Assembly (NCBI GenBank): GCA_947464785.1
Contig: CANHXZ010000003.1
Location: forward strand, 1 to 45,705
Direction of reading: 5' to 3'
DNA from: Flavobacteriales bacterium
GTDB lineage: Bacteria; Bacteroidota; Bacteroidia; Flavobacteriales; Schleiferiaceae
Length of the DNA: 45,705 nucleotides
In this document: positions 11,415 to 17,297 of the stretch, piece by piece
How the letters are laid out: every line of letters begins with the position of its first letter
How positions within the stretch are numbered: the stretch's first letter is position 1
Position numbers and translations under genes: made by a program
Notes under the pieces: generated by a model
Told to the model about the DNA's origin: nothing
The model's database searches: none
What the model saw: only the letters and a program-made list of their open reading frames with translations

Positions 11415-11538
11415 CATCAGCCGCCACCCCTGTTCAGGCTTGATTTCCCAGTGAAAGCAGGCCTTTTTGCCGGGAACCCGCTTGGCCGGAAGCGTTGCAA
11501 ATACTTGATTTACTGCAAAATTTACCTACCTTGGAACC

Positions 11539-12240
11539 GTGGAAGCGCATCATGTAATACCCTTTGGCTCCAGCTGGTGGTGGGGCGGATGGCTCATTTT
11601 TGCGGTCTACGGAGCCGTTGTTTTTTGGATTGGAAAGTCCGCAACGGAAGCCACGCGCGAGCGATTTGAGCGGTGGTGGGGATGGGTCATTTTGGGCTTT
11701 TTTGCCTTCGGACAATTCTACCAAGTACTGGACGGCTCTTGGAGCCTGCAAGAAAGTCTCCCGCTGCACCTGTGTTGGTTCAGCCGGTTCTTGGCGGTGC
11801 TTTACCTGACCTTCCGCCAGAAGTGGGCCTTAGTGCCGCTGTTCTTCTGGGGCATTGTGGGGGGCTTTCATTCGTTCCTAACGCCAGAAAGCACGCTGGG
11901 AAGCGGTTCCTTCATGCTGGTTGAGTACTACTTCAGCCACGCCGGCATCATTTTGGTTCCGCTCTACAGTGTGTTTGTGGGCGGATGGCGCATTCCGGCC
12001 AACGGCTGGTTGCAGGCGTTTTTTTGGAACAACGTCCTCTTGTTGCCGATTTACCTGATCAATCTGGCCGTAGGCGGCAACTACATGTTCTTGGTAGCAC
12101 CACCGGTGGCGGAGAATCCCTTTGTGGTGGGCGAGTGGCCTTACTACATCCTGGGCTTTGAAGCCGCGGCCTTGCTGCACTACGGCGTGTTGCGCCTTAT
12201 TTTCTTCAATTTTGTTCTTCCCAAAAGGGCAACCGCATGA
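11539..12240 (+). CDS. YwaF/TMEM164-like (TIGR02206-type) membrane protein, copy 1
   Basis: 233 aa polytopic; LPLHLCWFSRFLAVL, QKWALVPLFFWGIVGGFHSFLTPE, GGNYMFLVAPPVAENPFVVGEWPYYILGFE; GTG start. Confidence 0.85.
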   Translation: MEAHHVIPFGSSWWWGGWLIFAVYGAVVFWIGKSATEATRERFERWWGWVILGFFAFGQFYQVLDGSWSLQESLPLHLCWFSRFLAVLYLTFRQKWALVPLFFWGIVGGFHSFLTPESTLGSGSFMLVEYYFSHAGIILVPLYSVFVGGWRIPANGWLQAFFWNNVLLLPIYLINLAVGGNYMFLVAPPVAENPFVVGEWPYYILGFEAAALLHYGVLRLIFFNFVLPKRATA

Positions 12241-12923
12241 ACGAGCACCACGTCATTCCACTCGGCTCCTTTTGGTGGTTTATGGGATGGGCCCTTTTGG
12301 CGGCCCAGCTCTTGGTGGGTTATGGGGTATCCCGCTATGCCTCGGAGGCGTCCCGACGTCGGTTTGAACAGGGCTGGGGAATCGCCATCTTGGGAACGTA
12401 CGTCTTGGTGCAAGGGTACGTGGCCCTGCGCGGAGACTACACCTTGAGCAACAGTTTGCCCATTCACCTGTGCTCCTTCAGCCGTGTGTTGGCCTTTTTG
12501 GCCTTGACCCTGCGCAAAAAGTGGGCGTTTTACCCCTTGTTTTTTTGGGGAATCATGGGCGGAATGCACGCTTTGATCACTCCAGAAAACACCTTCGGCA
12601 ACAATCCCTGGACCTTTGCCGAATATTTCTTTGGTCATTCCTCGGTTATTGCCGTACCCATTTACTTGTTGGCCATCCGCGGCCGAACCCTGAAAAAGTG
12701 GTCTTGGCTGACGGCTTGGGGTTGGACCAATGCCTTGATTGTGCCCGTGTACGCGCTGTCTTGGTTGGTGGACGGCAACTACATGTACCTCCGCGAACGT
12801 CCCCTGGTAGCCAATCCATTTGTGGTGGGGGAATGGCCGTGGTACGTGGTGGGCTTTGAGCTCCTGGCCGTGGTGCATTTCTTGGTGTTTACGGCCGTCG
12901 CGTACAAACGAATTGAACGATGA
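12237..12923 (+). CDS. YwaF/TMEM164-like membrane protein, copy 2
   Basis: 228 aa; LPIHLCSFSRVLAFL, KKWAFYPLFFWGIMGGMHALITPE, DGNYMYLRERPLVANPFVVGEWPWYVVGFE; ATGA overlap with copy 1. Confidence 0.87.
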   Translation: MNEHHVIPLGSFWWFMGWALLAAQLLVGYGVSRYASEASRRRFEQGWGIAILGTYVLVQGYVALRGDYTLSNSLPIHLCSFSRVLAFLALTLRKKWAFYPLFFWGIMGGMHALITPENTFGNNPWTFAEYFFGHSSVIAVPIYLLAIRGRTLKKWSWLTAWGWTNALIVPVYALSWLVDGNYMYLRERPLVANPFVVGEWPWYVVGFELLAVVHFLVFTAVAYKRIER

Positions 12924-13624
12924 ACGCGCACGACTGGATTGCCACAGGCCTGGGCTGGTACCTCTTCGCGGCCGTTTTCGTTCTGTTGTGGTGGGTGGCC
13001 CCGCGCACGGGTTCGCCGCACCTGAAGACCTTTGAAAAAGGTTTGGCCGTATTCATTGCCCTCAACTACGTCTTCTACCATGTTTCCGCAGCGGTTTTGG
13101 GCGATTGGTCCGTGCAAGAGTCCCTGCCCTTCCATATGTGCAACCTCACCCAATTGATGCTGATTTGGCACTTACTCACCGGGCAGCAGTGGGCGTTTCG
13201 CATCTCAGCCATATGGGGCCCGTTGGGCGGCATTCAAGCGCTGTTTACCCCAGGCATCGAGGCAGATTATTGGTTTCCGCTGGTGGTTCAGTTTTTTGTT
13301 TCCCACAGCCTGGTGGTTTTGGTCCCGATTTACCTGATGGTTCGTGCCGGACGTCGGTTGCCCAAACGCTTCTTTTGGCCCATCATTGGGTACACGCACT
13401 TGGTTGCCTTGGTGCTGTACCTGATCAACCGGTCGTTGGGCAGCAACTACATGTACGTCAACCAACCCCCGCCCGTGGACCATCCGCTCCTGCACGGAAG
13501 CTGGCCCTACTACTTGTTTTGGATCGACGTGGCGTTGTTTGCCTTGGTGGCCTTGTTTCTCTGGGGGTTCCGGCGCTACACCCACCCGGAAGGCGAGGGA
13601 AACCCCTCGGTTGGGGAGGCTTAA
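12920..13624 (+). CDS. YwaF/TMEM164-like membrane protein, copy 3 (divergent)
   Basis: 234 aa; LPFHMCNLTQLMLIW, QQWAFRISAIWGPLGGIQALFTPG, GSNYMYVNQPPPVDHPLLHGSWPYYLFW; ATGA overlap with copy 2. Confidence 0.85.
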   Translation: MNAHDWIATGLGWYLFAAVFVLLWWVAPRTGSPHLKTFEKGLAVFIALNYVFYHVSAAVLGDWSVQESLPFHMCNLTQLMLIWHLLTGQQWAFRISAIWGPLGGIQALFTPGIEADYWFPLVVQFFVSHSLVVLVPIYLMVRAGRRLPKRFFWPIIGYTHLVALVLYLINRSLGSNYMYVNQPPPVDHPLLHGSWPYYLFWIDVALFALVALFLWGFRRYTHPEGEGNPSVGEA

Positions 13625-16559: not shown

Positions 16560-17297
16560 ATGAGCTTTTTAATCGTTGAACAAACTACCTACGCCATCGG
16601 AACAACCGGGTGGTGGTCTGGATTGAGCATTGGTCTGGGCTACGCGGCCTTGGTGGTACTGGCGGCGCGCTTGCTGCGCGGCGATGACCGCGTTCGGTTT
16701 GAGCGCATTTGGGGCTTCGCAATCTTGGCGCTCATGATCTTCAAGCACGGCAATTTGCTGTACACCGGGCAGTGGAGTTCGCAGGACCACTTGGAAATGC
16801 AGCTGTGTGGATTCAGTCGGATTTTGGCCATTTTGTTGCTGGTGTTCCGCCAGTCGTGGGCTTTTTACCCCCTCTTCTTTTGGGGCATTGTGGGCGGATT
16901 GCACGCCTTTCTGACCCCCCAGTACACGGCGGGCTCCTCTCCCTTCATGTTTTGGGAATACAACCTGGCTCATGCGGGAATCATGATTGTACCCCTCTAC
17001 CATTATTTTGTTCACGGTTTTGAAATCAAGCGCTGGACCTGGGCCAAAATGCTGGCCGTCAACATTGCGCTCATGGTACCTGTGGGTTTGATCAACAAAG
17101 CCACGGGCGCCAACTACATGTTCCTGTCCCAAAAACCCATCGCCAACAACCCGTTCATTGTGGGGGAGTGGCCCACGTACATCTTGGGATTCGTGGCTGC
17201 CGGGGCACTCCACTACGCCTTGTTGACCGTTTTTTTTGCCCGACGTTCCCGCCGAATCAAGGTTGAATCAAGTTCGGACCAACAGCACCGCCCGTAA
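16560..17297 (+). CDS. YwaF/TMEM164-like membrane protein, copy 4
   Basis: MSFLIVEQTTYAIGTTGWWSGLSIG...LEMQLCGFSRILAIL, QSWAFYPLFFWGIVGGLHAFLTPQ, GANYMFLSQKPIANNPFIVGEWPTYILGF. Confidence 0.86.
   Translation: MSFLIVEQTTYAIGTTGWWSGLSIGLGYAALVVLAARLLRGDDRVRFERIWGFAILALMIFKHGNLLYTGQWSSQDHLEMQLCGFSRILAILLLVFRQSWAFYPLFFWGIVGGLHAFLTPQYTAGSSPFMFWEYNLAHAGIMIVPLYHYFVHGFEIKRWTWAKMLAVNIALMVPVGLINKATGANYMFLSQKPIANNPFIVGEWPTYILGFVAAGALHYALLTVFFARRSRRIKVESSSDQQHRP

Follow-up and report, generated by a model that had tools for sequence, protein, structure and literature searches.

A tandem array of TMEM164-family proteins in a Schleiferiaceae genome, and an A/B gene pair as a candidate set of periplasmic phospholipid transacylases

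Human TMEM164 uses PC as the donor and ether lyso-PE as the acceptor of C20:4 (PMC10474074). LhaT (YpjA) of Bacillus, a reconstituted lipoprotein N-acetyltransferase that carries out extracytoplasmic acyl transfer, has been placed in the ATGY superfamily to which TMEM164 belongs (PMC12345273). Bacterial members of the TIGR02206 or YwaF type usually occur as single copies; we saw this in the remaining families of the order as well as in a sample of the class. In contrast, the genome studied here carries four such copies, of which three form a coupled array; they fall into two old subtypes, termed A and B. The locus lies in a stretch of 45,705 nucleotides from an uncultured Flavobacteriales bacterium of the Schleiferiaceae (contig CANHXZ010000003.1), which was analysed as a whole and is referred to as the window.

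Array layout and family membership

The array comprises three genes on the plus strand: W1 (11539-12240; GTG start, 233 aa), W2 (12237-12923; ATG start, 228 aa) and W3 (12920-13624; ATG start, 234 aa), which is its last gene. Neighbouring genes share ATGA overlaps at 12237-12240 (W1/W2) and 12920-12923 (W2/W3), likewise on the plus strand. An earlier note on this DNA had described three consecutive genes of one family joined in this way, and both its coordinates and its two junctions are confirmed. A fourth copy, W4 (16560-17297, plus strand; 245 aa), is absent from that note. It lies 2.9 kb downstream of the array, from which it is separated by genes for a universal stress protein (an identity that rests on the homologue in G007, a genome of the same genus), cation efflux and DNA alkylation repair as well as by a tRNA-Pro. 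A search of the whole source genome (84.7% complete, 163 contigs) returned W1 to W4 only and no fifth copy.

All four proteins score 136-146 bits against Pfam TMEM164 (PF14808; gathering cut-off 25 bits) and, like other bacterial TIGR02206/YwaF-type proteins, exceed the curated cut-off of 75 bits for NCBIfam TIGR02206, with 103-111 bits for W1-W3 and 97 bits for W4. The scores of W1-W3 are far above both cut-offs, so that the family match is not due to chance, and the assignment of the three array proteins to one family, as made in the earlier note, holds by HMM search. Its remark that the family is usually annotated only as YwaF/TIGR02206 is dated, since the current NCBIfam name reads 'TMEM164-related integral membrane acyltransferase'. 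Pairwise identities are 46% for W1-W2, 47% for W1-W4 and 37% for W2-W4, whereas W3 shares 24-30% with the other three copies (28% with W1, 30% with W2). Thus, W3 is the most divergent of the three array copies, as had been claimed for copy 3.

Two minor features of the array region were recorded. Upstream of W1, a TTG-N19-TACCTTGG element was picked out by eye at window positions 11505-11534, ending ~5 bases before the GTG start codon; it resembles a Bacteroidota promoter, and an mRNA starting from this promoter-like site could be leaderless. A 232-aa open frame antisense to W2 (12180-12878, minus strand) is probably a shadow of the W2 coding strand.

Fold, topology and candidate active site

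Seven TM helices are predicted for W1, and the AF2 models of W1 and W3 (pLDDT 91.5 and 84.9, respectively) each contain seven long helices. For both models, human TMEM164 (9lw1) ranks first in the PDB with a TM-score of 0.62 and a probability of 0.99 for W1 and 1.00 for W3, while the next-best among the 50 matches listed reach probabilities of at most 0.20 and 0.33, respectively. The Foldseek E-values against TMEM164 are weak (0.27 and 0.019), though rank and probability are clear, and we count them against our preferred explanation. In addition, W1 and W3 share only 14-17% identity with the human protein in the fold alignments. When the family profile was compared with the PDB, human TMEM164 (9lw1) was the sole match below an E-value of 1, at 0.094, which is weak when taken alone.

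All 88 proteins of the family alignment share, without variation, C79, T115-P116, H134 and N181-Y182 (numbered as in W1). The profile alignment to 9lw1 places C79 on residue 123 and H134 on residue 181, the latter by counting along the printed alignment, and each of the four copies has kept the Cys and the His that correspond to C123 and H181 of the human protein. Reed and colleagues reportedly proposed in 2023 that these two residues of TMEM164 are catalytic. Loss of the catalytic residues in the divergent W3 was considered and rejected, as C, TP, H and NY are all kept. In W4, the first His of an HxC motif is replaced, giving QLC; the same position is Q in the genus g13 and Y in five outgroup proteins. 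As this position varies in other intact members, we rejected the QLC motif as a sign of decay.

Could the four proteins be non-enzymes, that is, fold-related membrane proteins acting for example in transport or sensing, which keep the Cys-His pair for structural reasons? The literature searched, in which we found neither a biochemical test nor a substrate of a TIGR02206 or YwaF protein and hence no tested activity, would be in line with such a role and counts against our preferred explanation. However, Cys, His, Asn-Tyr and Thr-Pro are invariant in 88 proteins of otherwise low identity, and the Cys and His match those of TMEM164, which leaves this reading with a very slim chance, the smallest of those considered here.

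Lys and Arg residues are found in loops 1, 3 and 5 and at the C-terminus and are few at the N-terminus and in loops 2, 4 and 6, a pattern shared by all groups of the family. Under the positive-inside rule, this distribution would place the N-terminus and the three even-numbered loops on the periplasmic side, together with the invariant Cys, Thr-Pro and Asn-Tyr. Acyl-CoA is unavailable on the periplasmic side, which would make a lipid the natural acyl donor. By analogy, such a donor may be expected from TMEM164 and, albeit with a different donor molecule, from LhaT.

A predicted active site on the periplasmic face would also suit lipoprotein N-acyl- or N-acetyltransferases analogous to Bacillus LhaT, which shares the ATGY superfamily with TMEM164 (PMC12345273). 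However, Lnt is above cut-off in the source genome (G000:C16, 218.8 bits), in both genus mates and in most genomes of the genera g16 and g18, so that an enzyme for the normal N-acylation step is already at hand; a replacement of Lnt was rejected on this ground. Moreover, LhaT belongs to a different domain family, DUF1405 and not TIGR02206, and uses Ac-HepG as donor. A Pfam scan of W1-W4 detected no DUF1405 domain and matched TMEM164 instead. A role in lipoprotein acylation thus appears improbable.

Subtypes, gene order and turnover in related genomes

A tree of 88 proteins separates two subtypes by a long branch (1.69), in agreement with the distinct subtypes anticipated in the earlier note. 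W3 falls into a clade of 19 sequences (subtype B, clade III; support 100/100), which holds one sequence from each of three species of the source genus, g1, and from 16 genomes of g16; within the family, subtype B was found only in these two genera. W4 (subtype A, clade IV) groups with the first gene of the g16 gene pairs (19 rows, 100/100). W1 and W2 join this A group (27 rows, 96/92), which also includes a dispersed copy from three g16 genomes. These extra A-type copies (L039, L041 and L053) are located beside a transporter-like and a TonB-receptor-like gene, as named by eye. At 25 alignment columns, B is fixed (>=90%) to a residue rare in A, including N49, P101, Q106, Q124 and H188 (W3 numbering), which favours a different role over simple redundancy. 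For a union of A and B to the exclusion of the g13 single copies, the p-AU value was 0.46.

Constraining the tandem copies of g1 to one clade lowered lnL by 129 (p-AU 4e-104). One recent tandem triplication is thus rejected by the tree and the AU test, and W3 is, as judged by phylogeny, an old subtype and not a runaway tandem duplicate. The earlier note had envisaged an ancient duplication kept as one operon. The duplicated array on one strand agrees with this proposal; a single triplication unit does not, in view of the AU test and of a deletion of W2 in G006, the nearest relative. The deep clade that W3 forms with g16 sequences, the orthology of W4 to the g16 upstream gene and the restriction of W2 to the genus likewise speak against a single ancient triplication.

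A family member was present in 45 of the 88 genomes sampled from the Schleiferiaceae, with copy numbers from one to four: three to four in each of the three g1 species, mostly two in g16, and one in g13 and g18. The other families in the order sample (398 genomes) had single copies, two copies located apart from each other or one copy broken in two. Among the 395 genomes of the class sample, 18 carried a member, and no neighbouring copies were found except in the window genome. Within what was sampled, the tandem state is special to g1 and g16, and the earlier expectation of such an arrangement in close relatives is borne out for both genera. In the genera g3, g5 and g6, we obtained no TIGR02206 matches, and Lnt was mostly below its curated cut-off; one g6 genome reaches this cut-off by pieces taken together.

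In all 16 B-bearing g16 genomes, an A gene immediately precedes the B gene in the same orientation, the A-B junctions often overlapping by one base (TAATG), and this A gene is the orthologue of W4. One g16 genome has an A gene alone, which ends at a contig edge. In five g16 genomes (completeness 63-89%), the array and the adjacent enoyl-CoA hydratase gene are both missing, an absence near the expectation from incompleteness, to which we therefore gave no weight. In the window genome and in G007, both of g1, the B gene follows W2 and shares an ATGA overlap with it. B was never found without A in g1 or g16, and its constant position right after an A partner suggests that the two may work together.

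The composition of the array is less constant. G006 is ~90-92% identical to the window over most of the region and keeps W1, W3 and W4, while W2 carries an in-frame deletion of ~543 bases; its remnant (L034 8059-8172, minus strand) is a short open frame in which the start and end of W2 are retained. As the nearest relative has lost W2 through this deletion, it is the A-B pair, an A gene followed by a B gene, that forms the conserved unit and not the triplet. The deletion left 112 nt between W1 and W3, which we count against a coupled pair; likewise, the position of W4 apart from the array and the fact that no W4 was found in G007 count against the preferred explanation. In G007, W1, W2 and W3 adjoin a histidine kinase gene and an enoyl-CoA hydratase gene, a neighbourhood as in the g16 pairs. 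In G007 and g16, the array is immediately preceded by the hydratase gene (L035 6906-7670; L119 1495-2265), and the hydratase gene in turn by the kinase gene. In the window genome, kinase and hydratase genes still adjoin each other, at G000:C38, without the array, which together with the loss of W2 indicates that the array has moved and that A genes come and go.

Comparison of the window with G006 yielded dN/dS ratios of 0.074 for W1, 0.062 for W3 and 0.067 for W4, similar to the neighbouring flippase gene (0.076); purifying selection acts on each of the three. The in-frame loss of W2 in G006 with the rest retained, and the variation in copy number across the family, are compatible with functionally redundant duplicates that share one activity and owe their retention to dosage or drift. 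However, the long A/B branch with its differing fixed residues, the selection acting on each of the three genes and the absence of B without A in g1 and g16 render redundancy unlikely.

Proposed function of the A/B pair

Taken together, the best explanation is an A/B pair of TMEM164-type phospholipid transacylases, acting as a heteromer or with two specificities, to which we assign a probability of roughly two in three. W1-W4 would be TMEM164-type (ATGY) acyltransferases with seven helices in the inner membrane. A membrane lipid may donate an acyl group to their invariant Cys (C79 of W1), aided by the invariant His (H134 of W1), and an acceptor on the periplasmic face would then receive this group from the Cys. 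W3 and an A-type partner, namely W1 or W2 here and the W4 orthologue in g16, would represent a co-inherited, translationally coupled pair; the two would either form a heteromer or serve one lipid-remodelling step as separate transacylases that differ in specificity. The data establish the family, the fold, the alignment of Cys and His with TMEM164, the two subtypes with their co-conservation and the purifying selection; acyl transfer, its periplasmic side and the functional A/B pairing are what we infer. C20:4 ether lyso-PE, the substrate of TMEM164, would not be expected in the source bacterium.

Although the family itself is not new, its A/B pairing appears to be. With only two genes and an invariant Cys-His pair, the A/B unit would offer a compact test bed for periplasmic lipid acyl transfer and for the effect of pairing on specificity, and results on A and B would bear on substrate choice by the human enzyme TMEM164, which is important in ferroptosis.

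The earlier note had offered a heteromeric complex or related but distinct activities; the latter fit the data at least as well and are favoured, a heteromer being possible. Its strictest form, an obligate A/B heteromer in Schleiferiaceae-like bacteria whose subunits have different lipid-binding surfaces or serve the donor and the acceptor side, is a tentative and rather doubtful proposal. ATGA overlaps are common in compact genomes, and linkage and coupling are therefore no proof of a complex. The PDB holds 4 chains over 2 TMEM164 entries (9lw1, 9lw3), which would fit a dimer.
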